Shown here: positions 8,266 through 62,740 of the stretch, one piece after another
How the letters are laid out: every line of letters starts with the position of its first letter
Position numbering within the stretch: the stretch's first letter is position 1
Origin: Rugalucina vietnamica
Taxonomy: Eukaryota > Mollusca > Bivalvia > Lucinida > Lucinidae
Direction of reading: 5' to 3'
Length of the DNA stretch: 64,000 bases
Assembly (NCBI GenBank): GCA_964017185.1
Contig: OZ024880.1
Span: forward strand, 39,770,329-39,834,328
The notes under the pieces: model-generated
What the model was told of the DNA's origin: nothing
Seen by the model: only the letters and a program-made list of their open reading frames with translations
Databases searched by the model: none
Translations under genes and position numbers: made by a program

Positions 8266-8379
8266 TTAATAGCTATATATAGCTATTGTTTATTTGTTTA
8301 AATGTCCGACTATAAATAAAATTTGTATTCTGTATTCTTCTATTCATGCAAATGTATTGTAATGTATTGTAATGTTTCA

Positions 8380-8690
8380 CCCATAGTGCAGATTATATTT
8401 TTCTTTCGGTACTTTGAGATCAGTAAAGATATTCAGAGTTCAAAACACTTACGTTTAGAAACATACTTCTAAGCATTGTTTTAATTACTTGGCCTCGTTT
8501 AGAAATGTGTCTTTGATTTAGACCTCTCGTATAAATTCTCGAAATTGCAGCTCTATAGTCTGTCTTTCGTTGTCGGTTTAAAAAGGGCTACTGATGAGGG
8601 TTCATTACCCGAAATTGTGCAATATAGTCCATACTATCTCCCTTTGAATGTTTTACTGCTTCCAAAGGATCAAACCATTATATTTTAATT
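8380..8690 (+). repeat. hammerhead-bearing repeat, single copy
   Basis: The copy matches 54110-54440 through CATAGTGCAGATTATATTTT, TTTGAGATCA, TTCGTTG(T/C)CGGTTT and CCATACTATCTCCCTTTGAATG. It contains a complete type I hammerhead motif at 8585-8630. Left of 8380 and right of 8690 the similarity stops, with no clear target duplication. Confidence 0.8.
8585..8630 (+). ncRNA. type I hammerhead ribozyme motif (HHR-1)
   Basis: Stem I is formed by GGGCTA (8585-8590) and TAGTCC (8625-8630), six pairs with one G-U. The core CTGATGA is at 8591-8597. Stem II is GGGT/ACCC (8598-8601/8607-8610) with a 5-nt loop. GAAA is at 8611-8614. Stem III is a minimal TTG/CAA (8615-8617/8620-8622). A T-A pair position and an unpaired A precede the predicted cleavage between 8624 and 8625. 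All invariant core positions are present. A short stem III is typical of ribozymes of Penelope-like elements and metazoan retrozymes. Activity is inferred. Confidence 0.85.
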
Positions 8691-20361: not shown

Positions 20362-21952
20362 GAGGTACAAGTAGGCGATGATCAGGAAATGGCGCAATCA
20401 GAAAGATATTCCCACTCCATAAACCGAGGGGTGGGAAAAAATAATATGACACTTAGGTACGTATACCGAGAAAACATATCGTAAGCCGAGTGAGCAGCTA
20501 TTCCCCAATAGGCGGCCACTCAGTTACCTAAACTGAACTAAAAATATAAAAAAAACGTACACAAGGCTCAATTAAACAGCACAACAATCTACTCCAAAAT
20601 ACAAAACAATTAGAACCGCCTTGGAACGATCAGTAATATTAAATTACTTGGGGGGCTTAAACCGGTTTTACAGGCGTCTAACCTCATCCTCATCTTCTGC
20701 AGTGGTTCACAACATTTAGTTAGTTGTTCGGTCTCGTGGTGAATCTCTAGCTAGTCAATGAATCATCAAGGACAAACGAATAAATCATGATAATCACCCA
20801 GATGAATAAAAAACGAGAACTCAACAGATTCAGTAAGCTGCCCGACGGTGGAGATCCCTGGGCGCCGAATAACTTGCTGAAACCCGAAACAAAAGAAAAA
20901 CACCAGTTGAACCCCGGTGGGCCAAGCAACAGACAAGAAGCTCCGGTCCCAACCAACTAAAACGAATAGCTTTATGTCGGAAACATCTGACGCCCGACCC
21001 ACCGGCGTGCAATTAGAGAAGGCAGCATAGTCATCAACCATGATTGGGTTAAAAACTAAGCATGCAGACTGTCATATAACATTCAAGTTATAATCTATAC
21101 AATTGTAACATGTTATGAATTTTCTGAACTGAAAAGAAAAATCATTCCTTCCTATAATTTTCTTAAATTTGTAAACCAAGTCACCATAAAATTCTGGTTC
21201 CGATAGGCCCTCACGTACGTCTTTAGCCCAACCTTAAATTTAGAAATCAACTCATAGTGTTCGCGATAGAATTTAGAAAACGTTTTTCGAAGTTTATGAT
21301 ATCGATAGCCTACATAATTGCACACTCTAGCAAACCTAATAAGTTACGAAATGTATTATACCATACGAAGCATGGCGAGGAACGTCACCATCCAAAAACG
21401 AAAAAAATACTATATCAAAATCAAAGTCATCGCGTTTATCATCAATCTTAAAAGAAACAAATCCATTAGACAGATAGACAGATGTAAATCCAAAAAGGGG
21501 GCTTTGGTATCTGTTGTGTTGGCTTTATTCAACTGTAGTTCAGGTGGATAGATATGATTGACCATGCCTTCAAAATATGGATTGTCAATGTTCAAAAGGT
21601 CATCGAGGTACCTAGAAGTCGAATTAAAGGCCTCGATAACATCAGCTTGATTGTCATGGTTAAGAGAATCCATGAAATCTCTTTCGTAGCAGTGTAAAAA
21701 TAAATCAGCTACGAGAGGGGCGCAATTTTTACCCGTCGGAATTCCAACAATTTGTCTGTATAACTTGGTTCCGAATCTAAGATAAATGTTATCCAGGAGA
21801 TAGGATAAGGCATCGCATACATTCTGACATGCCCAAAGTGTGTATCGACTTTGGACAGAGGAAGTGAAAAAAAAAAGCGTAGAGACTTCTTTAGGCGCAT
21901 CAGGGTCTGGTAAAAATATGAAAGTACGTGGCTTGTCCCAAAAGTCCCGTTA
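20362..21952 (-). mobile_element. Penelope-like retroelement, 3' part with RT and tail
   Basis: Read on the minus strand, the copy runs from a decayed reverse transcriptase (21952-20960) into a ~600-bp non-coding tail that ends CCTACTTGTACCT at 20362. This is the longest copy of the family in the window and the key to the many tail-only fragments. The left duplicon arm ends inside it at 20872. Confidence 0.8.
20960..21952 (-). pseudogene. reverse transcriptase, frameshifted
   Basis: One open frame on the minus strand from about 21952 to 21410 contains the finger/palm region: a GIPTGKNCAP motif at about 21730-21757, the catalytic YLDD at 21599-21610, and FLDL about 45 residues later. A frameshift near 21475 moves the frame, after which KRDDFDFDIV and FLDGDVP can be read. 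Further frameshifts and stops follow until GRASD near 20995. YLDD followed by a PFLD-like motif and a KRDDF segment is the arrangement of Penelope-like RTs. No GIY-YIG endonuclease was seen. The family assignment is inferred from motif layout. It is clearly non-functional. Confidence 0.8.
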
Positions 21953-45994: not shown

Positions 45995-46719
45995 TATCTG
46001 ACCCTTCTTGTCCGTTATACATTATGCTAGCCGAGCCTTTTGTAGCATTTTAAAAGCTGTTTGCTGTATCATCCAAACAAAAGTTATTTGCTTACACTAC
46101 GAGTAAATTGTGCGCTTATCTTTTATTTCATAGTATCAAAAAAGTTATATTTTCATTAAAAATGGGAGATTTGCCTTGGAACGTTCGGCATTCACATGCC
46201 ACTCATATACCGGTCGGAGGATCGAACTCACAATCTGGCTTGGTTGCACATCGAATAAGATATCCCATAGACTGGACATTGACTGATTAGCCTTATGAGT
46301 GCCACGACACCCACCCGTCCACTGCACCTTTAATTTTCGTCAACGTCACAGATGTACAGCATCAACGTCGCAATTTTGACGCTAACATTGAGAGAAGTAC
46401 TAACAATTTACATATTAACCGATTATGAATTTAAATAATTGAGAAACGTGCAAGATGTAAGAATTGCTACATGTATAGTACTGTCCAATGAAAACGCAGC
46501 AATTATAAAAAGTTCAATATTTTGTTTTTGCTAAATATTTCTGTTTCGTTATGTTTTATTTCAGTATTGTGAACTTGTTAAAATTATGACAAGGTATGTT
46601 TTCTGATAAGTAATGCCGTGAGCCGAAGGCAGCTTACACGTTAACTGTCAAAAAGCTCGCAAAACCAGAATTCGATGTGCAAGACGTGCAAAAAATTTCA
46701 GTTACACATTAAACTGCGC

Positions 46720-47030
46720 CTACATGACACATGATCAAGGGAACTTTAGAATTCAGAAAAGTAAGAATAGAGGGACCTGGTGCAGGAATCGATGGAATTA
46801 AATTCAAAGTCCCGCCATAGACAACAAGTGGGAACGATAATGTATCACACTACATAACAATTTTTCCGACAACATACTCGAAGAGCTGTGTGACTAGCAA
46901 TTTCCCAACAAGGTAGCCATCCGGCTAGTCTCAACCAAAACCAAAGGCAACGAGCACAACAGAGAGGCAGACAGAATAAAGATACACCATTTTTACCGGG
47001 ACGCCAATTACCTTTTGTGACTCGTGTCAT
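46720..47030 (-). mobile_element. distant relative of the retroelement tail
   Basis: GTGTGACTAGCAATTTCCCA followed by AAGGTAGCCATCCGGCTAGT has the same hairpin layout as GTGAGCAGCTATTTCCCA ... GGCGGCCACTCAG in the main family. AGCACAACAGAGAGGCAGAC follows at the equivalent place. Sequence identity is low, so the relationship is tentative. Confidence 0.4.
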
Positions 47031-47159
47031 TATGGATTATAAAGAAAATAATTTAATATAACACGTATTGTGTTCAACTGAGTGGCATATGCTAAACCGA
47101 CCAAAAGCTTTTGGTGCAATTAAGTTTAAATCCCAACCTACGACACCAGAATCATAGAG

Positions 47160-47160
<1 letters not shown>

Positions 47161-47201
<41 letters not shown>

Positions 47202-47202
47202 T
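47161..47202 (+). repeat. (TTA)n microsatellite
   Basis: An uninterrupted run of about 14 TTA/ATT triplets. Confidence 0.95.
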
Positions 47203-47749
47203 TTACATGGACAGCGAAATTGTATACATGATTTACTAAAAACGGATTTTAATAAAAATACACAATGTGCTCAGCTGGCTAACACGTGTATCATTGGCTT
47301 CGAAAACGTAAAATATGCATTCTTGACGTCATAAGTAACATTTTGACCAACGCAAAACCACACGGACATGCAAAGCGCGTCTAAATTTCAAGCGCAAAGT
47401 CATGGTAAATCACGGATTCAAGACGCTTTGTCCTAAAGTCGAACCGATGAAAATCAGATTTACAAATCAACGATACTAAAAGTCTGGTGCATATCGGGAT
47501 AGAAATGTCAAGTAAACTGACTCCACTACGGCCTTCTTTCACCCACGTCACAACACGCCCAATCCGACTAATATGTTTTAAAGATACCAAGCAACCAAGG
47601 CACATGGGGGCTACTCTCAGTCAGACGGATGGGATAAGTTTAGTCAACGCATAGCACCAGGCAATATGACACTGTAGCCAGTTGAGCGGTTTAAACGCGG
47701 TATTTCAGAAGTAAAATTTTCATTTAAAACTTATTTTTATAGTTGGGTT

Positions 47750-48010
47750 TACACTATGTTCTCGGCGGTTACGGCGGCCACGTTTCAGACAACCGTGATC
47801 AAAACGGGATAAACGTGAGGCAACACAGGGGAACGGGATAGCCAAAAGTAGCAGGCCGTGATAACCATGGACACCGTGGCAAATGTTTTGAGTTTAAAAA
47901 TCTGCCACGGCAGTCACGCCGGAAACGAGAAACGTAATGGGCCGTGATAAAACGGACTGAACGTAACACACCGTGACAGAACGTACATGTTACAGTACGT
48001 AGCGAAACTT
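47750..48010. repeat. CCGTGATAAAACGG word swarm
   Basis: CCGTGATAA, AACGGGATAAACGTG and CACGGCAGTCACGCCGG-type words recur in both orientations across about 260 bp that is more GC-rich than its surroundings. The style matches the swarms at 38335, 56335 and 60060, but the word differs. Confidence 0.5.
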
Positions 48011-48454
48011 GGAGGCGGTCCGTAGTGCATCGGGAAGCCATGTTGATGCAAGTGTCGAACATTATACTCCTTTACCATTATTTAATTTGTTTCTATTATA
48101 TACATTTCACTCCAGTTTATGTTTTTAATAATTTTACTTCTATTTTATCTAATTTGTAATATGTTTCATTTACTCTGACGGGTGTATTTTTGCATCCTGG
48201 TGCATATACTGCATATGAGCACGGTTTAAGAAATACTTAAGTTGGTCGTATGTTGATCTTAAAGTTGAGATGACTTTGAGTTAACAACATAATCTTCTTT
48301 TTCAAAAGCAAAAGTTTGACACCAGAAGTTTCTTCGTTATATTTATGTATATTTACATTTTTGATGCAGTCTTAATGAATCTTTAGAATTGAAATGCGGT
48401 TCATACAATGTAGTTCCATGAACAACAACAGTGTGTCAGGCGACAAGACATGAT

Positions 48455-48530
48455 CCAAAGTGGACGTCATCAAACCCATGGCTCTTCCCGGTGTAATTGG
48501 ACGTTGTAAACGTTATGACGTCATCGATGT
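48455..48530. promoter_or_regulatory. CRE-like sites upstream of an open frame
   Basis: A perfect CRE palindrome TGACGTCA lies at 48516-48523, and GGACGTCATC occurs near 48463. An ATTGG (inverted CCAAT) is at 48496-48500. They lie about 150 bp upstream of the ATG at 48679. This is a promoter-like combination, but no TATA box or transcript evidence is available. Confidence 0.35.
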
Positions 48531-48678
48531 CGTTCCGCTGTTTGAACACACACCGTGCATGATTTCTCTGTTTGCTTGTTAATGTGATCAATTTGATATT
48601 TTTTCAATACGCAATAGAGAGAAATGAATGTTAATATAAGCAATGAGTTTTGTTTTGAAGCGTAAATAGCTATGAACT

Positions 48679-49155
48679 ATGAACCACAGTGAGTCGCTTG
48701 CAAATCGTACACGAGCCCCTTCGGCGTTCAGTTACTTTTCAGGGAATGGAATTTATTTCTTAAATAAAGACGACGAGAAGCATCTTTTGCAACTCGAAGT
48801 TAAAAGTGTTCAATTTGGAAATGAAAGCTTGACGTCTCGGGTGAAGAAGAGGGCGATGTTATATCTTAAAAAGGCTGAGCCGTTAGGCTCACGGAAAGCT
48901 TTTACTAGTATCGGCTTTCATCGGTACCCGTACGTCGTCCGTTGCTGTCCACCGTCTTCAAAATTCTTTCCAGAACCGCTTGTTAACGGTCACGGGGGCA
49001 GCCTAGTAGAGATTTTCGAATTAAGAGAGCCCGGACATCGGGTAAAATATAGCGATGTCAACCGGAGTCCGAACGTTCGGACTTCGGATCTTGTTCCGAA
49101 GTTCGGATCCAATCACATCGAAGGTTCGCTAAAAATCAAAGTGTCCAATATATAA
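48679..49155 (+). CDS. unassigned 158-residue open frame
   Basis: The frame starts with an ATG (MNHSESLANR) and ends at a TAA. It is the longest ATG-initiated frame in the window and its base composition is more GC-rich than its flanks. I recognise no domain, signal peptide or membrane segment; residues 30-65 are charged (KDDEKHL, KKRAMLYLKK). The second half (from about 48877) overlaps a reversed, decayed end of the CTCAGGTGAGC-ended repeat (GCTGAGCCGTTAGGCTCACGG, then GTCGTCCGTTGCTGTCCACCG). A near-palindrome lies at 49062-49087 near the C-terminal end. CRE-like sites upstream could drive it. It may be a chance frame or a lineage-specific exon. Confidence 0.25.
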   Translation: MNHSESLANRTRAPSAFSYFSGNGIYFLNKDDEKHLLQLEVKSVQFGNESLTSRVKKRAMLYLKKAEPLGSRKAFTSIGFHRYPYVVRCCPPSSKFFPEPLVNGHGGSLVEIFELREPGHRVKYSDVNRSPNVRTSDLVPKFGSNHIEGSLKIKVSNI

Positions 49156-49635
49156 TACGTTATGATAACATGTCAAGGTCTTTGCCTGACAGATCTTTAA
49201 TAAGCGAATTCTTAAGCTGGTGTGTGTATACATGCAGGAAAGAAATAGAATTCCATTAATAATTATGATTATCTATGAAGTGTCTACTTAAATGTTCGCT
49301 GAAAGTTTGACAAAATGGGAACTTGAGTAAATGTTCAAGAATGTTTTGATGACGGCATAATTTTGCAAATTAACTGAGATGTAGAAAGGAGTAAATATAT
49401 GACATATGCGTCACAGTCAGTAAATGTGGCTTGCTTCCGGTGGATGTAAAAGTGACACTTTTAACAATGAAATTAACATATGTGTATTGCTATTTTCAAC
49501 TTTAAGTATGATGTTATATGACGTTTTTTTCTGCGTCACATCAACGGCAACCCAAGCTAAGTTCAGCAACTCTTGCTTATGAATGCTCATCGTAGGAACA
49601 CTGGATTTACATAAATGTCTTATAACCAAACGTTC

Positions 49636-49727
49636 AAGATTCTAGCTTTATTCTGTGACTGTACAGACTGGTTTGTGTTGAACCGGGTCGGAACCCCCGA
49701 AGACCGATTTTTCTCGCGTCACGGCTC
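49636..49727. mobile_element. GAGCC MITE, terminal fragment
   Basis: TTCTAGCTTTATTCTGTGACTGTACAG, TTTGTGTTGAACC and TTTTCTCGCGTCACGGCTC are the outer ~90 bp of one end. The hairpin and the other end are missing. Confidence 0.7.
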
Positions 49728-49923
49728 ATATGATCCGAAGGTTCGAACCATCTGGATGTTTGTTTCCAAACCTCCTAACCTTTAATCTTACTCCGCAACC
49801 CCTTATTTTCGTCCATGTTGGCTTTTTCAATCGTTTATAGACTAATATTTATATTTTTATTGCAATCGCCCTAAATGAAAGTATCTTTCTTGATGTTCTT
49901 CATTTCCCAATACAAAACATTAA

Positions 49924-50040
49924 GTCACGTGATCTAGAGGCCACGCCTATTGGCGGGGCGACGTCAAAAACCAACCAGTGACGTTGTTTGTTTACTCTTG
50001 TTGGCGTGACGTCGGTCGCATATCGCCATGACGTTAAGTG
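49924..50040. promoter_or_regulatory. CpG-rich block with E-box, GC box and CRE half-sites
   Basis: TCACGTGATC, CTATTGGCGGGGCG and several GACGTC/TGACGT words (about 49971, 49980, 50009, 50031) occur within 120 bp. Such clusters are common in housekeeping promoters. No gene was identified on either side, so this is only a candidate. Confidence 0.3.
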
Positions 50041-50162
50041 CGAAAATTTGACGTTTTGGCTGTTCCAAAATTACGTTAAGTCGGATTTAATGTCAAATAA
50101 CATGAAAATGAGCGATGATATGTGCAACTGAAAATCTGATACATGATTGATAAATAAGTATT

Positions 50163-50299
50163 GAAATTCAGATTTTAGCTTTCACTGGATGATGAAAAAC
50201 ATTAGCTGTTTTAATGTCTCCGAGAAGCCCTTCGGGCTTCACAGACATTAAAGTAGCCTAATATTGTTCATCATCCAGTGAAAGCTAAAATCTGAATTC
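50163..50299. repeat. 140-bp nested fold-back
   Basis: ATTCAGATTTTAGCTTTCAC... (50165-50196) pairs perfectly with 50267-50297. TAATGTCT (50212-50219) pairs with 50243-50250, and GAAGCCC/GGGCTTC (50224-50240) closes a 3-nt loop. The whole folds into one interrupted hairpin with a GC-rich tip. It is probably a small MITE; no target duplication is obvious. Confidence 0.85.
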
Positions 50300-50304
50300 C
50301 AATC

Positions 50305-53300
50305 CTTAAGTAATTGCTGCAGCGAAACAAATGGTCAAGTTAGCAACAAATTTGCTGCAGTGAAAAATATCAAATTATCAGCAATTTCATGTACCAACAC
50401 TTTTTGTCGATGAGTTTTTTTCGTTTTAGCCTGGCTGTGAGCACTATAGAAAACGATTATGAATGTTGCAAACAAAACGTTTCTATCAAACCTATGACAT
50501 GAGTTATGGACTAAATAATCACAGTAATGACCTGCCAATATTGTATATTCCATATCAGAAACCACAATAGGAAAGGAACTCTATAAGCTTAAAGCTTTCG
50601 TTCTAATCCTACAATTTGCTATTGTATGTATATATGTTTGCATGTCAATTTGAAATTGAGAATAAATATGTTTAAACCAAATGCCCTGCTAGTAGTAAAA
50701 GTGAAAAAAGTCATGTTAGCAGTAAATTTGCTTCAGCGGTAAACGGTCAAGGTGGCAGCAATTTTGCTGCAGCGAAAAACAGTCATGCTAGCTGCAATTT
50801 TGATGCAGCCAAAATGTTAGGTTAGCAGCAATTTTGCTGCAGCGAAAAACGATCATGTAAGCAGCAGTTTTGATGCAGCAAACATAGTCATGTTAGAAGC
50901 AAACCTGCTGCAGCGAAAAACGGTCAAGTTAGCAGCTGCAATGTTGCCTCGGCATATTTTTTTTTGATTGTTTTTGTTTCAGTATAGCTGTGCATAGCAA
51001 TTTTGATGCAGTGAAAAGCGGTCATGTTAGCAGAAATTTTACTGCAGCGATACATGATCAAGTTAGCAGCAATTTTGCTGCAGCGAAAAATGGTACTTTA
51101 ACATGTAGCAGCAGTTTTGCTGAAGAAAATTTTGTTTACGGTTATTTTTGTTTCTGTCTGGCTGTGAGCGCTATAGAAAATGATGATGTATGTTGCAAAC
51201 AGAACTTTTCATCCCGCCTATGACCCAAGTAATAGACCGAAGTTCCCAAACCAGCAGTAAAAGTGAAAAGTACTAGGAGATTTTGTCGACAAATTGTTTA
51301 GTTATAGTGTGGCTGTGAGTGTGGCTATAGAAGACATTGACGAACGCCTCAAACAATGTTTTCTGATGGAACGAAAAACTTCCGTGTTACATGTAACAGC
51401 AATTTTCCAGCAGCGGAAACCGGTCATCTAAGCTGCAGGTTTGATGGCAAAAATGGTCATTTATATGTTAGCAGCAATTTTGATGCAGCAAAAACGGTCA
51501 AAAAATTAGCAGCAAACCTGCTGCAGCGAAAAAATGGTCATGTCAGCTGCAATGTTGCCTCAGCATTTTTTTTTTTGTCTCCGATTGTTTTCGTTTCAGT
51601 CTGGCTGTGAACAACAATTTTGCTGCGATGAAAAGCGGTCATGTTAGCAGTAATTTTGCTGAAGCGAAACACGGTCATGTTAGCAAACATATTAATGCAG
51701 CAAAAATGGCCAAGTTAGCTGCAAATCTGCTGCAGCGAAAAACTGTCGAGTAAGCAGCGATGTTGCCCCAGCAAATATTTGTTTCCGATTGTTTTCATTT
51801 CACTCTGAATGTGAACAGCAATTTTGCTGCAGCGAAAAGCGGTCATGTTAGCAGTAATTTTGCCGCAGCGAAAAAGTGTCATGTTAGCAGCAATTTTGCT
51901 GCAGTGAAAAGCGGTCTTGTTTTAGTGTGGCTAAATTTTGATGCATCGAAAAAGGGTTAATTAAGCAGCAAACCTGCTCCAGGGAAAAGCGGTAAAGTCA
52001 GTATCAATTTTGCCGCAGCGAATTTGTCTCCGGTTGTTTTCGTTTAAGTCAGGCTGTGAACAGCGATTTTGGTGCTGCGAAAAACTGCTATGATAGCAGT
52101 AATTTTGCTGCATCGAAGAAAAAAGGTCAAGTTAGCAGCAAGTTTGCTGCAGCTGTGAGCACATTAGAAAATAAAAAAAAAAATGTTTGCGGCATTCATC
52201 AACGTTTTTTCTAGCGCTCACAGTCAGATTAAAACGAAAACAAAAAATTCACTCTTACTACCGGCAGAAAATGTTTGTCAATAACTAGGGCCATAGGTTC
52301 GAAAAGTAATGTTGGCGGCATTCATAATTGATTTCTATAACGCACACAGCCAGAATAAAACGTAAACAAAATGTCGTCAGTTTTATTTTCACTCTTAATG
52401 CTGGCAAGGAACTTCGGTCCATAACTCGGCTCACAGGTTAAAAATTATGTTTACAACATTCATCATCGTTTATATAGGGCTTACAGCCAGATCAAACTGC
52501 GAAAGAACAATAAGTTGACGTTGGGCCCTGGGTTGGATAGCAAAATTCTGCTTGCGGCATTCATCATCGTTTTCTATGGCGCTTACAGCCAGGCTAAAAC
52601 GAAACAAAATCTTCGACAAAAATTTTCGCTGCAGCAACTTGCTGCTACATGTAATTTAACGTTTTTCGCTGCAGTAAATTTGCTGCTTACTTGACCGTTT
52701 TTCGCTGCAGCAAAATTGCTGCCAACTTGCAAAATTGATGCTACAAAATTGCTGCTACAAAACTGTTGCTTGGCCGTTTTTTCGCTGCAGCGAAATTTTC
52801 TGCCAACCTGACTGCTTTTCACTGCTGCGACTTTGCTGCTAATGCACCACTCATTTGTATCCACGGCTTCTTTAGGGCGGGGGATAGTGGGAAGGCAGCG
52901 GGGCTAATGTACCGGGGTTTAACCTTTGAGTCCCGGCATTGCTGGGGATGTGCCGAGGTTTTAATTTCCATATATTATAAGATCACATTAATTCAAATTA
53001 GATGCTAGTTGTATTTTCTAACGTTTTATTTTAAACATTTTTGGTCCTTATTTAATTTGCAAATGTACCTGTACATTTACATGTAGAAATTCAAGCCTGT
53101 TTCTCATGTACATTTATGTTTTATTAGAACAAAACCAGCTGTTGTTCCATATTATTGTCAGCCTCCGGAGAGCCGCAGCTTTTAGCAGGGATTGTGCCAC
53201 AAATCTAACCCCGCAGTGCCGGGCTTTTAGCGGGGCTTTAAAACTAAAGATATTCCCCGGCCCCAAGTGACTTGTGCATAACTTGACCGTTTTTCGCTGC

Positions 53301-53630
53301 AGCAAAATTGCTGCTTGCTAGACCGTTTATCGCTGCAGCAGAAAATGCTGCTAACGACCGTTTTTCGCTGCAGCAAATTTACCGCTAACTTGCCTGTTGT
53401 AGCAGACTTGTTGTTAACATGCACGTTTGCTGCTACCATGACCGTTTTTGCTGCAGCAAAATTGCTGCAAACTTGACCTTTTTTCGCTGCAGAAAATTTA
53501 CTGCTAGCTTCACCGTTTTTTCGCTGCAGCAAAATTGCTGCTATCTTGGACCGTTTATCGCTGCAGCAAATTTGCTACTACGTTGACCGTTTTTCACTGA
53601 GGAGAAATTGCTGCTAAGAGTAATTCAGTA
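50305..53630. repeat. GCAATTTTGCTGCAGCGAAAAACGGTCA swarm, inverted halves
   Basis: From 50305 to 52160 the words GTTAGCAGCAATTTTGCTGC and AGCGAAAAACGGTCA recur dozens of times on the plus strand. Longer TTCGTTTCAGTCTGGCTGTGA blocks are interspersed every 200-400 bp. From about 52200 to 53630 the same words and blocks appear reversed (TGACCGTTTTTCGCTGCAGC, CACAGCCAGAATAAAACG). The centre near 52870-53260 is GC-richer. The region is a large palindromic array with no gene; its frames are compositional. Confidence 0.85.
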
Positions 53631-53662
53631 ATTCACTTTGGCTCCATGTTGCCATATCTAAA

Positions 53663-53706
53663 GGGTCACTGAAGAGGCTTAAGTAGCCGAAACCATGATA
53701 TGGCCC
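53663..53706 (+). ncRNA. type I hammerhead ribozyme motif (HHR-2)
   Basis: Stem I is GGGTCA/TGGCCC (53663-53668/53701-53706). The core CTGAAGA at 53669-53675 differs from CTGATGA only at position 7, the one core position known to vary. Stem II is GGCT/AGCC (53676-53679/53685-53688) with a 5-nt loop, followed by GAAA at 53689-53692. The stem III segment CCATGA hardly pairs. Cleavage is predicted between 53700 and 53701. It is probably weak as a monomer. Confidence 0.7.
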
Positions 53707-54327
53707 ATTCCCATTCTCATTAATATGTTCACTGCTCTTAAAGGATCTCAGTTTCATTTTATTTGCTATTACTGCTGCTGGTGTTGTGCCGTGTTGCGGG
53801 CCCTAAAAAGTCTCCCCGTACATCATCCGTAGTGCAGATTATATTTTCTGTTCGGTCCTTTGAGATCAGCGAGGATATTCTGAGAAATCAGAAAATTATT
53901 ATCGGTTAAGATACATTTTCTAACCAATATTTAAAATTTTTGGTCCAATTTGGAGAGTATTAGTCTTTGTATTGAATACTCAATATAGTCCATACTATCT
54001 CCCTTTGAATGTTTTTGCTGCTTTAAAAGGATCAAACCTTTATATTTTATTTGCTATTACTGCACCTGGTGTTGTGTCGTGTGGCGGCCCTAAAAAGTCA
54101 TCCCGTACATCATCCATAGTGCAGATTATATTTTTATTTAGGTTCTTTGAGATCATTAAAGATATTCAGAATGTTCAAAACACTCCCTTTGAGAAATATA
54201 CTTGTAAGCAATGTTTGAATTATTTGACCCCGTTTAGGAATTTCGTTTAGGATTTAGACTTCTCATGTAAATTTTCCAATTTCCAAATGGCAGTACAATA
54301 GCCTGGCTTTCGTTGCCGGTTTATAAA

Positions 54328-54373
54328 GGGTTACTGATGAGGGTCCATTACCCGAAATTGTGCAACATAGTCC
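54328..54373 (+). ncRNA. hammerhead ribozyme motif, decayed (HHR-3)
   Basis: Stem I is GGGTTA/TAGTCC (54328-54333/54368-54373) with two G-U pairs. Core CTGATGA is at 54334-54340. Stem II GGGT/ACCC is at 54341-54344/54350-54353, with GAAA at 54354-54357 and TTG/CAA stem III. Position 16.1 is C (54366) rather than U, so the A-U pair beside the cleavage site is lost. Activity is doubtful. Confidence 0.7.
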
Positions 54374-54490
54374 ATACTAACTCCCTTTGAATGTTTTTGC
54401 TGCTTCCAAAGAATCAAACCTTTATATTTTATCTGTTGAAAGTTGCAAAATTACAGTAATTCACTTTGGCTCCATGTTGCCATATCTAAA

Positions 54491-54534
54491 GGGTCACTGA
54501 AGAGGCTTTGGTAGCCGAAACCATGGTATGGCCC
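54491..54534 (+). ncRNA. type I hammerhead ribozyme motif (HHR-4)
   Basis: Stem I is GGGTCA/TGGCCC (54491-54496/54529-54534). Core CTGAAGA is at 54497-54503. Stem II is GGCT/AGCC (54504-54507/54113-style pairing at 54513-54516) with a TTGGT loop. GAAA is at 54517-54520. The stem III segment is the palindrome CCATGG (54521-54526). T127 and A128 of this block (54527, 54528) precede the predicted cleavage. A palindromic stem III would allow dimeric hammerheads, as known for ribozymes with minimal stem III. Confidence 0.78.
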
Positions 54535-54555
54535 ATCCCCATTCTCATTAATATA

Positions 54556-55526
54556 CTACTCAAACTTTGATAAGCATCAAAACTTTATTTTGATTACAGG
54601 ACATATTGGTAATCTAACACCCGAAATTTTGCTATAGATATATAGCAGCACCATCATCGTGCTTTTTTTTCTCGTTGCCTGCGAGCCCTTCTCACAGACT
54701 TGCAGAAACGAAGGAAACCCCTTGAATTTATAGTTGTCACTGTTGCCTACCCTATCCAATTCTGTCATTCATCCTCTCTTGCTGTTTCATTCATTTAAAC
54801 TGTAAAACTGTTTTGATAATCGAAAGTCGATACTTTTGTGTCTAAAATGCACGTTTGAAATTTTTTACAGAAATCTGTGATTTTTGGTTAAAAACACGAT
54901 TTTTACCAAAAACTTTTTTTTCGCTTAAAAATGTTGTCCTTTGCATGGCGAGCATGAAAACCATTTTTGAATACGCACTTTGGTTAGCTCAAACCAGCGT
55001 TTTTAAAATTTGTTGTCAGATGTTTAATCACATAATACAAATTACGTTCAGTCAAATGACAAATGTTTTAAAACGCTGTAAAATCGAAACCAATGCCCGT
55101 AGCTCAAATCGGTTTTCTGTTCCATACTCGAAGCCCAAAGGGCAACGTTTTGAGCGAAAATAAATCTTTTGGTAAAAAATCGTGATTAACCAAAAATCAC
55201 AGATTTTTGAAATTTTCCAAAAGTGCATTTTAGACACAAAACTATCGACATTTCGATATCAAAACAGTTTTGCAGTTGATTGAACCAGTAAGAGGAGATG
55301 AATGACAGAATTGGCTAGGGTACGCAACAGTGGCAACTTCAGTTTCAGGGAGTTTCCATCGTTTCTGCAAGTCTGCGAAAAGCGCTGGCAGGCAACGCGA
55401 AAAAAGATGGAATGTTTGCACAGTGTTGGTATTGCATCATATCTATAGCAAAATTTCGGGTGTTAGATTACAAGTTTGTTCTGTGAACAAAAATAAAAAT
55501 TTTGATGTTTATCAAACTTTGGGTAG
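54556..55526. mobile_element. long-TIR element inserted in hammerhead repeat
   Basis: CTACTCAAACTTTGATAAGC at 54556 is inverted at the right end (to 55526), and the two halves pair over roughly 400 bp each (landmarks TTGCTATAGATATATAGCAG, TTTTGTGTCTAAAATGCA and CGCTTAAAAATGTTG). TATA flanks both sides (54552-54555, 55527-55530). The paralogous site at 53719-53735 is empty (CTCATTAATATGTTCACTGC). The TA-rich duplication suggests a Tc1/mariner-type target. No transposase is present. Confidence 0.85.
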
Positions 55527-55559
55527 TATACGTTCCCTGCTCTTAAAGGCTCTCAGTTT

Positions 55560-55670
55560 TCATTTTTATTTACTTGCAAAATTGCTGCTTACTGGCAAAA
55601 TTGCTGCTACAAAATTGCAGGTAACTTGACCGTTTTGGCAACAGAGAAATTGCTGCTAACAGAACCGTTT
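55560..55670 (-). repeat. small patch of the GCTGCAGC-type swarm
   Basis: CAAAATTGCTGCTTAC, AAATTGCTGCTACAAAATTGC and CTTGACCGTTTTGGC are the reversed words of 50305-53630, located just beyond the resumed hammerhead repeat. Confidence 0.7.
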
Positions 55671-55961
55671 TTCCTTATTTGGACGGTATGGTGACACCGT
55701 CAAGGGCATTGCCCTGCCTTTTGACAATCTTGTGTGCAGGAAGAAACAGATTTATTTGATTTGTTTTACAATGTCGTGTACACATAAAATGTCATTTCTC
55801 TATTTACTTAGTTTGGTTTTGAGACGATCCTGATTTTTAGCTTGATTTCAACTGAAGTTCAATGTCCGTATCCGTCACCGTCTTAATGCGTAAATGTCTA
55901 TTATTACTTTGATTACGGAGAAACATGTACAGGACCATCCATGGCATGCATCGAGATGTAA

Positions 55962-56318
55962 AAAGGTACAAGTAGGCAAAGATCAGGAAAAGGCGCAATC
56001 AGAAAAAGATTCCCACTCCAAAAACCGAGGTGGGAAAAAACCAAACTAACAATCAGGAACTTAAACCATGAAACATATCGTAAGCCGAATGAGCAGCTAT
56101 TTTCCCAATAGGTGGCCACTCAGTTACCTAAACTTAACAAAAAATATGAAAACATACATAAGGCGCCAACAGCACAAAAAATTTTTATACACCAAGACAT
56201 AAAACAAAAAGAACCACCACAGAAGTATCGACTTGGAACGATCAGTAACACAAAGTTACTGGCGGGCTTAAATCGATTTTACATGGCCATAACCTCACCC
56301 TCAGCTTCTGCAGTGGTT
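55962..56318 (-). mobile_element. 5'-truncated retroelement tail with 17-bp target duplication
   Basis: The insert is flanked by CATGCATCGAGATGTAA at 55945-55961 and 56319-56335, an exact 17-bp direct repeat. The 3' end (minus strand) is CCTACTTGTACCTTTT. The 5' truncation is at CTGCAGTGGTT. This is the clearest evidence in the window for target-primed integration of the family. Confidence 0.93.
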
Positions 56319-56334
56319 CATGCATCGAGATGTA

Positions 56335-57250
56335 ATAGCTCTGTCACATATTCACGTATCAGCGGCGTATCGCTCGCGTATCTATGAGAGTTTTGATACG
56401 CCAAGGTCTGAGCCGTATTTCGTTCGAGCGACGTATGTACCACGTACGCGTGACGTTCCTGTTACGTTCCCGCGTATGAAATGTATGCGTGACGTATCTA
56501 CGGCGTATGTACTACGTTCCAGAATTATCTGCTGCATATCTGACCTGTACCAATTGCTTTTTAATACCTATCAAAACAAACGGTTGTGTTCCCTTTGATC
56601 ATGCAATTCGCACATTACAGTTATCAATTATCAGCGGTTGAAGCTGCCACCCTAGAAATTTAGATACTAGTAACCTAGATTAACACCTAAGAAAAAAAAC
56701 CGAGGTGGTGGTGGGGGTAGAAACATCTCCAAGCTCCCCATCCTAGTCGTAAGACGACATGAACAAAGACTAAGGCTACACCAAGCGTAGTCCTGAATGA
56801 ACCCTGCATGACACCCAGAACCGTCAGAAACATCGGAAAACGAAAACATAAATATAGAAGCATTAAGATTTTCTTGGAACGCCACAAAATATTCCTAATA
56901 CGTCACTCATACTCCACAGCAGCGAAACGTACGTGGCACATACGCAACGCATACGCCATTGACACGCGAGATACGTCACACGTACGTCGCTGATACGCCG
57001 TAGATACGAAAAGAGAGTCGAGGGTAAGCCACACATACACCGCACATACGTATGTAGCAGATACAAAAGATACGCTGTACGTACGTCACGGTTACGTGGC
57101 ATGTTAACCGTGACGTACGACGTACGTGTGGCGTACCAGGAGTATGAGCTACGTATTTATCGGCGTTCCTGCCACGTTACTTTCGTATGTCTGACATATG
57201 TGTGACGTATGTACGGCGTATCGGACATGCCACGTACGTGCTACGAATTT
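56335..57250. repeat. TACGTCA/CGTATG word swarm
   Basis: CGTATG, GACGTA and GGCGTAT words dominate 56350-56540. Reversed words (ATACGTCAC, CATACGCC) dominate 56890-57080, and forward words return at 57100-57245. A GC-poorer ~340-bp segment separates the first two blocks. The plan is the same as in 38335-39402 with a different word. Confidence 0.6.
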
Positions 57251-57259
57251 TTAAGTGCG

Positions 57260-58030
57260 CATATAAAAACGTAACACCTCTGCATGTACAGTGTATCGTA
57301 CAATGATCTGCTAAATGCTTCCGTTTAATGCATCGTAGATTTCGGTAAAATTGGGTTGATGTTTGTACTTTATTCGTCTGACCGAGCCTATTCTAATATG
57401 CATGTCTAACAATTATGTACTCATAGTCAACCGTATGTACGTATTAAAAGTTTAATCTAAATGCCAACAATAGACCTCGCTCATATTCTTATTTGCGCGA
57501 TTCTTTTAAAATGCGCATGTTGTTTGTACAAAAACATTGTGTTAAAACTGTAAGCATGTCTGTTTCTTTGCCCGTATCAATGAAACTTTACTCAGTAACC
57601 TCTATTTGCGGTCGCTTTATCGTATGGCAGCGGTCAATTTATTGCATTAAATTGTCCGTTAATAATCTGCCAAACACATGTTGGCATCTAGAACAACTGG
57701 TTTAATTGGATGGATGTCAGTCATACATGCATATTAATAAACAAGTCTGAATGCAATAAATGTGAATCTGCGTTTTTCACGAAAACTCTAGTTCGCGAGA
57801 AACTAGAAAACATTTAAAACATAATTTGTTTGCGTTAAAGGGCGGGTTTGATACCATTTTCTTCCTCTAAAAGATACCTGAAGAAACTAGCTATAAACCT
57901 GACATTGATTGAATTTTATTGGCCTCAGGACACAGTCAATTACTGATAACATCTGCAGTTACATGCTCATCAGTCCAATTTAGAAGTTGCTTGAGCCAAC
58001 TGACATTCAAATTTTATGCATGATTTTGGA
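57260..58030. other. no identifiable feature
   Basis: No gene, RNA or repeat family was recognised. The frame at 57493-57705 has no known domain. Confidence 0.45.
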
Positions 58031-58034
58031 GATA

Positions 58035-58162
58035 CTTTTATTGTGTTTGCCCCAAAACATAGATTGCGAATAATGTGTAGCCACAATCTGTTTACAGCAA
58101 AAATATAAAAAACAAATGAAAAGTTTCAATTTTTACAGCTGAACTAGCGTGTTTTCGTAATG
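58035..58162. mobile_element. CATYASGAAAAC-ended MITE remnant
   Basis: GCCCCAAAACATAGATTG, GTAGCCACAATCTG, AGCAAAAATATAAAAAAC and GTTTTCGTAATG are recognisable. The hairpin is mostly deleted and the left end is lost. Confidence 0.65.
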
Positions 58163-58825
58163 GAATCTATTCAGTGACAACAGGTTCACTGGCCAAGACC
58201 TGCATTCTTTCATTTTCTCAAACCTCAAATGGTTTGTACCATTCTGTATTGCCAAATGTGTCCATTTAGTGATGAATGAAATCCCTTTGTTGGATCATGA
58301 GAATGTAGTAACAAAATATATGGTCTCCTATACTTTCTACTTTAAGCAGTGCTTGAAAGCAGTCTATTTGTGTAGAATGACTCACTTTGAAAATGGTTCA
58401 AAGGCTATTTAATTATTTTAATTACTCGTTTACGCTCACAGTAAACTACTACTGTACTAAGGCTAAAGGGACGGTCAGGTATCCTTGCCACACTATTACT
58501 GGACAAATTCAGAAGTGGCAGATTACCAGTACTGAATGTACATATTTCTTTCACCACTGTCTGACAAATGTTCTTCTTTGAACAGCCAAAGAGAAAATGT
58601 GACGGGATAGCCTCCCTTTGAAAAATACGTTGGTGCAACGTATGAGCGGCATATTGAGTGCTTGTAATATGCAAATTTCAAACTCGCAACTTTGTGAATC
58701 GAGAAAGTATTGAGAATATAGCGCAGTAAACCACCCTTGGTGGATGAGCATGCTTTTCCACCGACGGGGTTTGCTGTGGCTTGGCTCGGCTGTTCGTTAA
58801 AACAGATTATAATCAAATACCCCCC

Positions 58826-58860
58826 GCAACCCCCCCCCCCCCCCCCCCACACACACACTT
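58826..58860 (+). repeat. poly(C)-(CA)n tract
   Basis: CCCCCGCAA is followed by about 18 C and five CA units. This is a simple sequence tract similar to 41846-41868. Confidence 0.9.
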
Positions 58861-59184
58861 GTGACCCTATATGTAATTATAAACTGATGTTTCCAAAAGC
58901 ATAACCTGACATGTTTTGGATAACTCTAATTCTTCTGTTCTACAAGACTGATCTTGAAGCAATTAGATTTGACCTGATGACCAACTATGCTGAAACCATT
59001 ACGAAATCATACTGTGAGCAATGCCATTAACCTTGATTAACATCATGGATTATGTCAGTCATTTTCAGTTCCCCTGGACTACAATCAGCAATTGTCCCTC
59101 CGTCCGTACGTGTTTATACTCGTATCTCAGATAAACGAAGGGGAATTCAGAAAAAATTATCATGATGGGCTCAAGTTCATTTTA

Positions 59185-59245
59185 TTTTCTATTACTGCAG
59201 CTGGTGATGTGCCGTGTGGTGGCCCTAAAAAGTCTCCCCGTACAA
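59185..59245 (+). repeat. fragment of hammerhead repeat
   Basis: TATTACTGCAGCTGGTGATG, GTGTGGTGGCCCTAAAAAGTC and CCCCGTACA match the middle of the monomers at 53768-53822 and 54056-54108. No ribozyme is present in this fragment. Confidence 0.7.
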
Positions 59246-59433
59246 CCACGGTTTTCGCATTTCGCAAAATTTCACATCCGCTGTGTGCATAATTCGTACC
59301 AATATATTACATTTGCATGTAGAATTGTGATATTTGCGTATGTTTAATTTTAATATGATGTTTTTGGATGAACTTTAAACTCAATAATCAAACAATTTTT
59401 GGCTTGGTGTCTGAAAAGGTAAAAGTAAGCACT

Positions 59434-59647
59434 TATCACGAAAACTTGCCCATGCAAAATACAGAAAAAAATCAGCAGAAAAACTGAAACTTTCTTTGAA
59501 AAAAAAATAATCGATATTTTAATAAAGAAATTTTGCCCGAGGGTACACGTAAGAACCGCGATGAAACACATAATCTACATGTTTCAAATAAACAGTGGGG
59601 TTTAAGGTTTAAGTGGGTATAGTTTTCATGGACATGTTTTCCTGATG
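59434..59647. mobile_element. CATYASGAAAAC-ended MITE, short copy
   Basis: ATCACGAAAACTTGCCCATGC and the inverted GGACATGTTTTCCTGATG are the ends. The central hairpin is reduced to GTAAGAACCGC. Confidence 0.8.
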
Positions 59648-59920
59648 ATGATCAGGAAATAGCGCAATCCCCACCCCAAAATCCAAGGTGGGAAAAACAA
59701 ATAGAAAATTAGGTACTAATGCAAAGAGAACATGTCGTTAGCCGAGTGAGCGGGTATTTCCAAAGAGGTGGCCACTCACTTACACGATCGTTACTAAACT
59801 TGTGAAAACGAAACAAATTACATACACTACCAAAACACAAACTAACTAGAACCACAACAGAAGCATCACATTGGAACGATCAATAATCTAAAGTACTGAG
59901 GAATTTATCCTATCTTCAAG
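59645..59920 (-). mobile_element. retroelement 3'-end fragment
   Basis: GATGATCAGGAAATAGCGCAATC, AATCCAAGGTGGG, GTTAGCCGAGTGAGCGGG and TTGGAACGATCAAT are tail landmarks. The copy directly abuts the MITE at 59434-59647. Confidence 0.75.
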
Positions 59921-60059
59921 TGTCAAATAATTACCATGCTCTGACGAATTGAAATCGATGCTTCTGATTGATTGCTTTATTGAAGTGTGACTGTGATCGG
60001 CCTGTTTGTCTACGAGATATACGTACTACATTTTTGAAAGTCAGAACGGACACACAAAC

Positions 60060-60710
60060 GGAGGAACACACGGGCAACGGCTAGAGATCCATCCTATAAC
60101 CTTATATTATAGGAATTTGCCCCGATCGCCGTACGATTTTTTTGCCAGCAAATTTCCCTACGATTTTTTGGACATCGCAGATGACCATGGACTACGATGT
60201 ACATGTATGTGTTTACAATTCATACGTCCGATTTCTTGTTCTGGCTTTAGTCGACATTCTGAGACAAAAACATACGGAGATCGTAAGGAAATCGTAGGGT
60301 CTCCGCAGTATTTAAAATCTTACAGAGCCCATGTGATGTTCCTACGACCGCATGATTTTAATGGTATCGTACGAACATCTTGCGACAGTCGTGCAATAGC
60401 CGTACGGAGGCCGTACGATCACCTTAAGATTACATGTACCTTACGATTTTTGTCCCAAAATTATCATGAAAATCGTGCGATGACCGCATGGTCTCCGTAG
60501 AGCGCTCATACGATGCAACTATGACATGTCTACGGCCTACGGTCTTACGATTTTTTTACATTTGTCAACGTGCAGACTATTACAAAATCGTAGAGGCTAC
60601 AGCTATCGAAGGAAGCCGTAGAATCGTAGCCTGGACATCGTAGGGTCGCCCTGCGGAGACCGCAAAAAATGCAAAACATTGGCATCGCACGGTCATCGTA
60701 GTGCAATCAC
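60060..60710. repeat. CGTACGAT/ATCGTAGG word swarm
   Basis: CGTACGAT, CCTACGATTTTTT, AATCGTAGGG and GGCCGTACG recur irregularly on both strands. The 164-residue frame spanning 60006-60500 starts at TTG, has no known domain and follows the swarm composition, so it is not annotated as a gene. Confidence 0.6.
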
Positions 60711-60880
60711 ATGCCGAATGTAACCTAGGCATTAATAGCCATATACTTTTTACACTGGCGTTTGTGCCTAAACTTAGGCTGACAGACGACGTAGGCTGAC
60801 TAAACTGAAACTATGCCAAATGTGACCTAGACATTATTAAACATTATATTGTTTCACTGGCGTTTGCGCGCAAACACTTT
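60711..60880 (+). repeat. 102-bp tandem pair
   Basis: ATGCC(G/A)AATGT(A/G)ACCTAG(G/A)CATTA and CACTGGCGTTTG(T/C)GC recur at 60711 and 60813. Only two copies exist, adjoining the swarm. Confidence 0.75.
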
Positions 60881-62629
60881 ATTACGTACGACGTATGGTA
60901 CATGTATTTAGGCAATGCAAACTAAATTGAAACTACATTTTGAAAAACAAATGTCAGGAGCATGATTTCTGATGGCATTAGCTTGATATATGTACTAGGT
61001 ATAGTTTTTCAACATGCTGGAACTATCAATCATGCAAAGAGAGTGGCATTTTGAATGTTTTTTTCAACTTTTTAGATCGAGAAAGAGTCACTGCATGAGT
61101 ATCTCAATATTCATTTTTCAGCTGTTAAATAAGATTTTCAGGGTAAATTATCTTTGTAAGCAGTTCCGCAACTTTTTAGTTGTAAACAGCATAAATTATG
61201 CAACGCTTTCTTTAGATCACTGTAGCGACAATTCATAACCAAATGAAATAAAATGACAAAAAACGAACTTGGCACATTGCAGATTTCGCCATGTGCATCG
61301 TCCGGGTCCAATTAATGCGGGAAACTGATCCGCGATCTGAAACGTTGCTCTTGAGAATTGATGTATTATGACAAGCAGATGGTTGTAACCCCGGATTGGA
61401 CAAGGCTAATGATTCGACTGATGTCTGCCAAATTTCATATACACGCGTACATTTTCTTTCACATGAATAATTACATCCTTACATTTCTAAAACATTCGAA
61501 AACGGCGTCCAAATTGTAAGTATATGAGTATGTTTTGTGTTACCAATATTAAGGAATTAATATATACATGTAATTATTATTATTATTTGTTTTAATACGT
61601 ACACACAAAGCGCTCGGACTTTTTGTATTGCATTACTCCACAGCGTGAATCGGCTAGTCCACGGAAAAATCTGCTTGTACGCTGGCATCTTGACATATTT
61701 ACCTGCATAATCATGCGACCTTTTAGAACGTATTGCATTTAAGTGCGAGATTTGTTTTCTATCAACATTGAATAGTCCACATGAAATGGCAGACTGTTTG
61801 CGATGTTCCTTATAATTCAATTTGATGTGTTTTTCTGGGCGTTGGCTTGCGTTAGCGCGGGTTTCAATTTTATCGAGCCATAAAATCATTGGAACGGCGC
61901 GTTGAAGGTAGGAGTATTTATATGCTTCATTTAGTTTCTTAGTTCATCGTCACGTTGTGAAAGTGATTTTCATACAATGCTTTTGATCATTATATGTTAG
62001 AGGTGTTGGGGAAACTTCTGACCCTAAATCTATCTAATTTCATAGTGCAGCCTGTTCAAGTTAGGATCGCTCTGTTTTCTTGGTTGCACTGTAAAGCACA
62101 AAAGCGCTAGATATCATCCAACTCTGTTCATTTAAGTCTGATCATCAGTATGTGCATAATTTACAAACGTTGTGTTCTTTGGGAGCGATTGGTTGATTGT
62201 ATTGGAGTAGGGAATGAACGTGACCACCCTATTGTATGCATTGCATTACTTAGAAAGCACAGGATCTTATAACCGCTGAATAAACACGCAGACTCGAAAC
62301 ATCTGTACACCCCCATGCACAAACACACATAATATCAATGTTTGGACTTCTTAATTGTAAGTTGTGATTTTATATGCACTCAAGCACTTCTTTTTGTATC
62401 ACATAATAATGTGAAGCGACATCATAATTTGTATATCTTTTTCAGACTTTGTACCTGACTCAAAGCGATCAAGACTGCTGAAGACACCGAAAACATTGAA
62501 AAATAATTTTAAAAAGTGAAATGTGTTATTCATTTTCACGCCCTTTTCAAAATTGTTTGAGGTCATCAGTAGGTAGGACGAAAACGGGAGAAACCACATG
62601 TCACGCCCTCAAGCAGAACTTGGTTTGTT
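60881..62629. other. no identifiable feature
   Basis: This is a long AT-rich stretch. Frames at 61014-61238 (+) and 61557-61889 (-) show no domain I know, and no repeat family of this window occurs here. Confidence 0.4.
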
Positions 62630-62740
62630 TCACAATTGCACCGCGTGGGGCTCGAACGCACAACAAACACAGCGATGCGATGATCGAATGAGTATGCGCG
62701 TTAATGAAATCAGTGCTCTTAACCACTCGGCCAAGAGGTA
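62630..62740 (-). other. tRNA-Ser/Leu-like sequence, not functional
   Basis: The minus strand has CTCTTGGCCGAGTGGTTAAGAGC (a class II D arm) and GCGTTCGAGCCCC (a T arm). The acceptor strands do not pair and the variable region is too long. It is probably a tRNA-derived SINE head or relic, followed by a G-rich run at 62743-62766. Confidence 0.45.

Follow-up and report, generated by a model that had tools for sequence, protein, structure and literature searches.

A degenerate retrozyme array in the bivalve Rugalucina vietnamica and a predicted hairpin module that its relatives have in common with a Penelope-like element

In this study, we analyzed an array of tandem hammerhead ribozymes in a 64,000-nucleotide stretch of the genome of the lucinid bivalve Rugalucina vietnamica (assembly GCA_964017185.1, contig OZ024880.1, positions 39,770,329 to 39,834,328 of the forward strand; hereafter, the window) together with its relatives elsewhere in the same genome. 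Judged from its sequence, this is an animal non-LTR retrozyme, a known kind of element, in the form of a degenerate array. We consider it likely that RNA circles derived from relatives of this array would be copied into DNA by a Penelope-like reverse transcriptase (RT), starting from a fixed site beside a predicted hairpin common to the two elements. With somewhat less confidence, we lean toward a more specific version, in which the retrozyme circles would mimic the recognition hairpin of a selenoprotein-type and apparently hammerhead-free Penelope-like element (PLE), and the RT of this PLE would roll around them.

Animal retrozymes are described as widespread and strongly expressed as RNA circles in a study of a mussel, which demonstrated cleavage, circles, and ligation by RtcB for its own retrozymes (PMC7229834). 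The same study left the mobilizing enzyme open and named PLEs as a strong candidate (PMC7229834); PLEs were also proposed as candidates in an account in which retrozyme repeats are described as having no conserved motif that points to a partner (PMC7761336). Many PLEs are described to carry a type I hammerhead (PMC7761336, PMC11167929), and for a PLE of Anolis, reverse transcription is reported to start at fixed internal stem-loop sites downstream of the hammerhead, where the insertions end (PMC11167929). What our analysis adds is a putative fixed start site and a module common to a PLE, neither of which we found in the literature covered, mostly open access and without supplements (PMC7229834, PMC11167929, PMC7761336, and PMC10886601).

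Hammerhead motifs in the window

A sequence-only reading had proposed a retrozyme-like array at 53626..55575, in which three type I hammerheads and one half-motif follow each other on the plus strand. The array lies there, but half of the interval (54554-55530) is an unrelated foldback element. The retrozyme-related features of the window are as follows.

8377..8687, plus strand: solo B unit, 5′-truncated, whose hammerhead (8585-8630) is intact and whose end lies at the fixed 3′ site
53622..53700, plus strand: hammerhead A1 with its 5′-truncated leader (core at 53663-53706, helix III mismatch, predicted cleavage at 53700/53701)
53701..53985, plus strand: monomer 1 (285 nt), A-type body with a B half-motif at its end
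53981..53991, plus strand: half hammerhead B, i.e., the helix III 3′ strand, the predicted cleavage site (53985/53986), and the helix I 3′ strand
53986..54367, plus strand: monomer 2, full-length B unit (382 nt)
54328..54373, plus strand: hammerhead B (A15.1-C16.1 mismatch, predicted cleavage at 54367/54368)
54368..54432, plus strand: B tail, running from the cleavage site as far as the fixed 3′ end (TTATATTTTAT), the end site being set by other arrays in the genome
54433..54528, plus strand: intact hammerhead A2 (core at 54491-54534, predicted cleavage at 54528/54529), preceded by an A-type leader
54529..54553, plus strand: A tail, the part before the foldback insertion
54554..55530, no strand: foldback (inverted-repeat) element, TA-flanked, ~977 bp, inside the A tail and outside the retrozyme proper
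55531..55572, plus strand: remainder of the A tail, ending TTTTTATTT at the fixed 3′ end
59179..59248, plus strand: A-type unit fragment that begins at the fixed site and contains module M (59208-59248; see below)

The cores belong to two subfamilies. Type A (53663-53706 and 54491-54534) has CUGAAGA, stem II GGCU/AGCC, and, in the intact copy, helix III ACCAUGGU; type B (54328-54373 and 8585-8630) has CUGAUGA, stem II GGGU/ACCC, and, in the intact copy, helix III AUUGUGCAAU. Using a strict descriptor (core, three stems, A15.1-U16.1, and H17), we found two sites in the window, at 8585 and 54491, compared with seven in total in 1000 dinucleotide shuffles of the whole window. These two hammerheads are intact, that at 54491 being the sole intact one of the three in the array. 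The hammerhead at 54328, with its A15.1-C16.1 mismatch, is probably weak or dead, that at 53663 has a mismatch in helix III, and the motif at 53981 is without its 5′ half. Between the A and B subfamilies, every one of the three helices has one pair with a double (compensatory) change. Pairing is kept in 48 of 50 pair cells (96%) of the four window motifs, and 4 of 500 shuffles reach that value or the covariation score; the count of doubly changed pairs alone, in four sequences from two clades, is unremarkable (reached by 179 of 500 shuffles). The three tandem type I hammerheads and the half-motif were confirmed, and the predicted cleavage positions given earlier, 54528/54529 and 8624/8625, were correctly placed.

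In the window motifs, helix III is capped by a short loop and helix I is open, i.e., they are type I hammerheads with closed stems II and III, as in metazoan non-LTR retrozymes. They are not the type III hammerheads of plant LTR retrozymes; the Rfam type III model gave 15.1 bits against 48.5 on one window motif. The GC content of the three stretches delimited by the cleavage sites is 36-37%, below the 50% that bounds metazoan non-LTR retrozymes.

A search of the window with Rfam at the gathering threshold gave no hammerhead, nor did a search of 2.5 kb at E values up to 10, and two 76-nt slices gave hammerhead matches below threshold only (14.8-15.4 bits). The sequence-only reading had named a covariance-model search without a hit above threshold as an outcome that would count against the hammerheads, and by that wording the result does so. 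Folding is similarly unsupportive: the hammerhead shape is the minimum-energy fold of none of the four window motifs, lying 0.6 to 9.6 kcal above the minimum, shuffles fold equally well, and the stretch 53994-54369, offset by 8 nt from the true unit, is no more stable when folded than its shuffles are (z 0.72). The exact window unit folded as a circle is 63% paired, a value given without a shuffle comparison. Both results, Rfam and folding, carry less weight than the compensatory changes together with the many copies in the genome; given the compensatory changes, we do not take the Rfam miss as a refutation. Three patterns scanned over viral contigs gave no matches, and the 20 scattered matches to a loose pattern in bacterial and archaeal genomes were taken as chance.

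The monomers had also been described as bounded by predicted cleavage sites. The stretches between these sites are 285, 382, and 161 nt; monomers 1 and 2 are collinear in alignment from the cleavage site onward. The 161-nt piece is probably no true monomer, its B tail having been joined to an A unit of separate origin. We doubt it as a monomer because the homology of its leader to B is weak (equalled by 234 of 3000 shuffles) and separate A units exist elsewhere.

The array within a large repeat

The window array sits in a larger repeat of ~18 kb (21 copies scored), a context that the sequence-only reading missed. We searched the assembly of the species itself (1.09 Gb, 47 contigs) with monomer 2 and scored 40 of 4380 first-look candidates. 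Copies of the large repeat account for 21 of these 40 places, including the window's own, and the other 20 copies match at 92.8-99.0% over up to 3.4 kb. Four sister repeats on other chromosomes are 94.9-99.4% identical to the window, in pieces, from ~44 kb to 58 kb, and three of the four continue to match to 61.6-63.2 kb. Because 21 of the 40 scored places are copies of the large repeat, the window locus spread as a passenger; by these alignments, the array is a decayed copy amplified together with the repeat. In its present state, it could hardly make unit circles.

Retrozyme arrays elsewhere in the genome

All 19 loci among the 40 scored that were not copies of the large repeat were taken as a first set. 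In a second search, the query was the fragment at 59 kb. Again, 40 places were scored; the 25 best resemble copies of the large repeat (not individually checked), one lies beside a known copy, and 14 fall at 12 other loci, of which we read 11 as a second set, leaving out C4:72793585. Seven of these 11 loci hold B arrays, and four hold A-type units of ~377 nt. Together, the 19 and 11 loci represent dispersed, multicopy insertions whose flanks differ by eye, and the total of 26 B arrays (19 and 7) is spread over many chromosomes.

The first-set arrays contain up to 14 full uninterrupted units (L077). The strict descriptor matched 44 sites in the 19 loci, and distances between neighboring strict sites are 373-378 nt in 22 of 26 cases, three being multiples and one (791 nt) an interrupted unit; tandem, hammerhead-bounded units within about 150-450 bp are therefore present in the 19 arrays, as in the window (382 nt). 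A model built from the four window motifs, at E values up to 1, gave 62 matches in the 19 loci and 25 in the 11, a few of them weak. The alignment of the 62 rows contains 29 distinct rows and five pairs with double changes, and its covariation score is reached by none of 500 shuffles, the alignment being fitted to the model. The tandem type I hammerhead units of ~374 nt, the many genome copies, and the GC content of 36-37% all support the retrozyme-like reading. In L060, an extra degraded B-type fragment ~80 nt past the array end was not counted in the array. In L077, the 9th and 12th units have five changes in common, i.e., an internal duplication.

Units are more alike within arrays (mean identity, 97.5%) than between arrays (94.3%), with some between-array values (up to 98.4%) exceeding some within-array values (down to 94.9%). 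In L067 and L075, the two full units are 100% identical even though 7 and 11 differences are private to these arrays, as expected if one circle were copied round repeatedly. Variable columns number 6 to 55 in the remaining eight multi-unit arrays, so that later mutation or other routes exist.

Insertions end at a fixed site

The 3′ ends of the arrays lie at one place in the unit. All 19 B arrays of the first set have their end within unit positions 65-74 (circular R 0.999; positions entered by hand). In the second set, selected through module M, the range for all seven B arrays is 60-71, with two arrays ending at 60. All 26 B arrays thus end 60-74 nt downstream of the cleavage site, at approximately ...ACCTTTATATTTTATT, followed by flanks that differ by eye; most ends lie past TTTT, at TTTTATT. 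By eye, the matching T-rich place is also where the four A loci end, L088 a few nucleotides further on. The 5′ ends of the 19 arrays, by contrast with this fixed end, are scattered over the unit (R 0.315, p 0.15; entered by hand, a few by eye). We noticed post hoc that 4 of the 19 lie at −14 to −1, near helix III. Among the A copies, L085 is one turn and L087 two turns, the start coinciding with the end site to within a few nucleotides.

The 19 arrays as a set gave no signal of target site duplication (mean flank score of 4.84 versus 4.94 for 342 mismatched pairs), and the solo copy at 8.4-8.7 kb has no target duplication (P 0.12). By eye, a 16-bp duplication flanks a single solo A copy, in L073. 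In metazoan non-LTR retrozymes, such duplications exceed 4 bp when they occur. We rejected two candidate duplications in the window: an 11-nt match flanking the array is equalled at 40 and 87 of 940 positions in the flanking 36-bp satellite, and a 10-nt match beside A2 resembles the A-leader sequence of another A copy.

Two alternatives to copying from circles bear on these data. The first, which we regard as unlikely, is linear, SINE-like retrotransposition, in which a transcript stopped at the T-run, as at a Pol III terminator, is inserted by any TPRT enzyme, with no role for hammerhead or circle. It would account for array ends in a T-rich stretch with TTTT and for the target duplication of the solo A copy (by eye), and the coincident start and end of L085 and L087 could reflect transcription start there. 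However, as many as 14 units carrying this T-run follow one another without interruption (L077), the majority of ends fall beyond the TTTT, at TTTTATT, and copies of one and two turns exist. The second, to which we give very little credence, is that the units are satellite DNA, i.e., tandem repeats spread by unequal exchange with the hammerhead as a passenger; while the internal duplication in L077 would fit this, the arrays are short, their flanks differ by eye, they lie on many chromosomes, and 26 of 26 B arrays have one fixed 3′ end.

A module common to the retrozyme and a PLE

The body of the monomer (TGTTGTGCCGTGTGGCGGCCCTAAAAAGTC...) had been called unrecognized in the sequence-only reading; part of it is in fact common to a PLE. 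This part, module M, and the PLE pieces in the window are the following.

21410..21949, minus strand: Penelope-like RT fragment of the same family as L091 (IPTGKNCAP and RYLDDL by eye)
53783..53824, plus strand: module M, 95% to the PLE
54071..54111, plus strand: module M, 93% to the PLE
55959..56318, minus strand: 3′ end of an L091-family PLE (55962-56318 is missing from the four compared sister repeats)

All 150 places scored for the PLE family, out of 11167 first-look candidates, match at no less than 83%, most over residues 25-149; many have a 640-aa open frame, and there are seven tandem pairs spaced 4225-4247 bp. Judged from these matches, the family is very young. We read one pair, L091, in full. 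Unit 1 is 5′-truncated, unit 2 spans 3362-7592, and both end TACTTGTACCTTTTTAT. By eye, L091 has the RT motifs IPMGTNCAP and YLDD; Pfam gave no RT match, and the GIY-YIG score was 17.3 bits, under the cut-off of 22.6. L091 also has in-frame TGA codons and a SECIS match, and we presume that it resembles the "Naiad" PLEs with selenocysteine. PLE 3′-end fragments in the window end at 7586-7597 in 12 of 14 cases, i.e., mutually within 12 nt, and PLE insertions also end at a T-rich site; as in other PLEs, the L091 family has partial-tandem copies with a fixed 3′ end.

In L091, the PLE unit ends TACCTTTTTAT and, 15 nt later, module M follows at 3377-3417. This stretch is identical to positions 86-126 of the retrozyme unit (B, L063) in 41 of 41 nt (E ~8e-17 in that comparison), and the A unit of L087 is identical to L091 over the same 41 nt. 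The junction of PLE end and module M recurs in 7 of 11 further regions. None of the other four spans the PLE start: two are without any match to L091, and in two the match, at 82-89%, is confined to its 3′ part. A twelfth PLE stretch, a 3′ end, stops at TACTTGTACCTTTT.

In both RNAs, module M is predicted to form the tip of a hairpin. Between retrozyme and PLE, the flanks of M have local matches of 6-7 nt only; nevertheless, each element's flanks are self-complementary and lengthen the same predicted stem. The predicted stems have energies of −20.2 kcal (5 of 2000 flank shuffles are as good) and −20.8 kcal (44 of 2000), and swapping the flanks gives −13.2 and −14.9 kcal, a loss of 5-8 kcal. 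The distance from insertion end to M is 15 nt in the PLE and 12-26 nt, mostly 18-21 nt, in the retrozyme, and the two start sites are alike solely in being T-rich. That both elements have M in common could reflect common descent rather than recognition. For SINE-like retrotransposition, the module poses a further difficulty: it lies beyond the end and would be absent from the 3′ side of a terminated monomer, leaving the sharing with the PLE unexplained.

We also considered that the hammerheads are remnants of Penelope pseudo-LTRs and that there is no separate noncoding element. PLEs are described to carry type I hammerheads (PMC7761336, PMC11167929), and module M is common to retrozyme and PLE here. 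We nonetheless judge this improbable, even more so than the SINE-like route. The model of the retrozyme family, at E values up to 10, detected no hammerhead in the PLE loci L091, L089, and L090, and Rfam gave none on L091. The A and B units match the PLE over 41 nt alone, besides one 12-nt match at chance level. Finally, with 22 of 26 spacings at 373-378 nt, there is no room for an RT frame in the units of ~374 nt.

Proposed mechanism

In our preferred model, relatives of the window array elsewhere in the genome would be transcribed into multimeric RNA, which the hammerheads would cut into units of ~374 nt, and a host ligase would circularize these units, as suggested by the mussel work (PMC7229834). 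A resident Penelope-like RT would then reverse-transcribe the circle into DNA at a new site. Priming would occur at a fixed internal T-rich site ~66 nt past the cleavage site and ~20 nt upstream of the common predicted hairpin; we propose that the PLE enzyme binds the hairpin and starts ~15-20 nt upstream of it, whether the template is the tandem RNA of the PLE itself or a retrozyme circle. The RT would go one or more turns and stop anywhere or upon return to the start. The resulting arrays would have a constant 3′ end, differing 5′ ends, and greater likeness among the units of one array than between arrays, which is the pattern observed.

If this is true, the retrozyme would parasitize a Penelope element by way of circular RNA, much as a SINE depends on a LINE, and the question of what mobilizes animal retrozymes would be answered for this genome. 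The fixed start and the 41-nt common hairpin tip make the PLE proposal simply testable in vitro and suggest what a Penelope enzyme recognizes on its template. In the SINE-LINE partnership, a noncoding parasite shares the RT recognition sequence, in the 3′ tail, of an autonomous element. Here, by comparison, the common sequence lies beyond the insertion 3′ end, internal to the circular or tandem RNA.

Among described systems, the retrozyme of Mytilus galloprovincialis (Cervera and de la Peña 2020, PMC7229834) likewise has type I hammerheads and two related families, with the families compared here by description. Its units of ~350-390 bp compare with mostly 373-378 nt (B) and ~377 nt (A) here, and a low GC content (here, in the window units) and thousands of first-look candidates in the genome are further points of likeness; in PMC7229834, we found no report of a fixed insertion 3′ end or of sequence shared with a PLE. 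Poseidon of Anolis (PAc) resembles the present case in its tandem or partial-tandem insertions and in a fixed internal RT start in a stem-loop, located ~85-92 nt downstream of the hammerhead cut by that paper's numbers (PMC11167929). PAc is described as an autonomous element (PMC11167929), unlike the retrozyme here, and the PLE at L091 is itself unlike PAc in that no hammerhead was found in it and in its in-frame TGA codons, which come together with a SECIS match. Plant LTR retrozymes (PMC4918200) are, from the features given in PMC7229834, likewise non-autonomous, with a hammerhead and circular RNA, but differ in having a type III hammerhead, LTRs, a PBS, and a PPT.

Self-complementarity of helix III

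With a pattern that demands A15.1 and U16.1, helix III could be parsed in 73 motifs from 30 loci, and 69 of the 73 are fully self-complementary. There are four self-complementary versions, AUUGCGCAAU (39 motifs), AUUGUACAAU (22), ACCAUGGU (4), and ACCGCGGU (4), and the central bases are GCGC, GUAC, CAUG, and CGCG. The two central bases of helix III can pair in a dimer but not in a hairpin; therefore, the kept complementarity would point to dimeric cleavage, and the retrozyme hammerhead may cut as a dimer. Dimeric cleavage is described for amphibian retrozymes, and invertebrate hammerheads are described to cleave well as monomers (PMC7229834). In the window, the motif at 54491 alone of the four has a self-complementary helix III, that at 8585 having a G-U in place.

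Penelope-like 3′ ends in the window and the coding capacity of the proposed partner

Fragments of the 3′ end of the Penelope-like family represented at L091, a locus of the same genome that carries a tandem pair of a young element proposed as the partner of the retrozyme, lie at 14 places in the window, from 7 kb to 63 kb, and 12 of these fragments share an end point within 12 nt. The L091 element has the following features:

L091:4128-4163, 5040-5042 and 6940-7007, Penelope-like element, in-frame TGA codons and SECIS_1 match

There are three in-frame TGA codons, and the frame that bears them is free of TAA and TAG over the span 3672-6962. The SECIS_1 match (37.4 bits; gathering score, 35) lies where the RT frame ends and is present in both tandem units. 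Because it combines in-frame TGA codons with a SECIS_1 match, the element looks, from its sequence, like a selenoprotein retrotransposon. Weak matches to twister-P1 in the 3′ region of both units (L091:3045-3109 and 7273-7337; 20.8 bits, with the gathering score at 67.2; E, 1.4) are probably due to chance.

Surroundings and ends of the retrozyme arrays

The array in the window lies in a large repeat and has a satellite around it:

44000-63000, large repeat (at least ~18 kb), of which many chromosomes carry sister copies
50309-53617 and 55576-55673, 36-bp satellite CGTTTTTCGCTGCAGCAAAATTGCTGCCAACTTGAC around the retrozyme array, oriented both ways

The window's copy of the large repeat contains long inverted stretches of the 36-bp satellite and no stop-to-stop frame of >167 codons.

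Two arrays, L078 and L081, have their 3′ end at unit position 60 (counted in nt downstream of the predicted cleavage site) rather than at 65-74. These ends possibly reflect a second start site, comparable to the two start sites of the Anolis Penelope-like element Poseidon (PAc; PMC11167929). By eye, the 5′ end lies within or at hammerhead helix III, between positions −14 and −1 relative to the cleavage site, in 4 of the 19 arrays (L061, L062, L074, and L065). A-type copies near B arrays are in the opposite orientation at L068, L073, and L079; at L068, the A-type copy and the B array appear by eye to be directly head to head.
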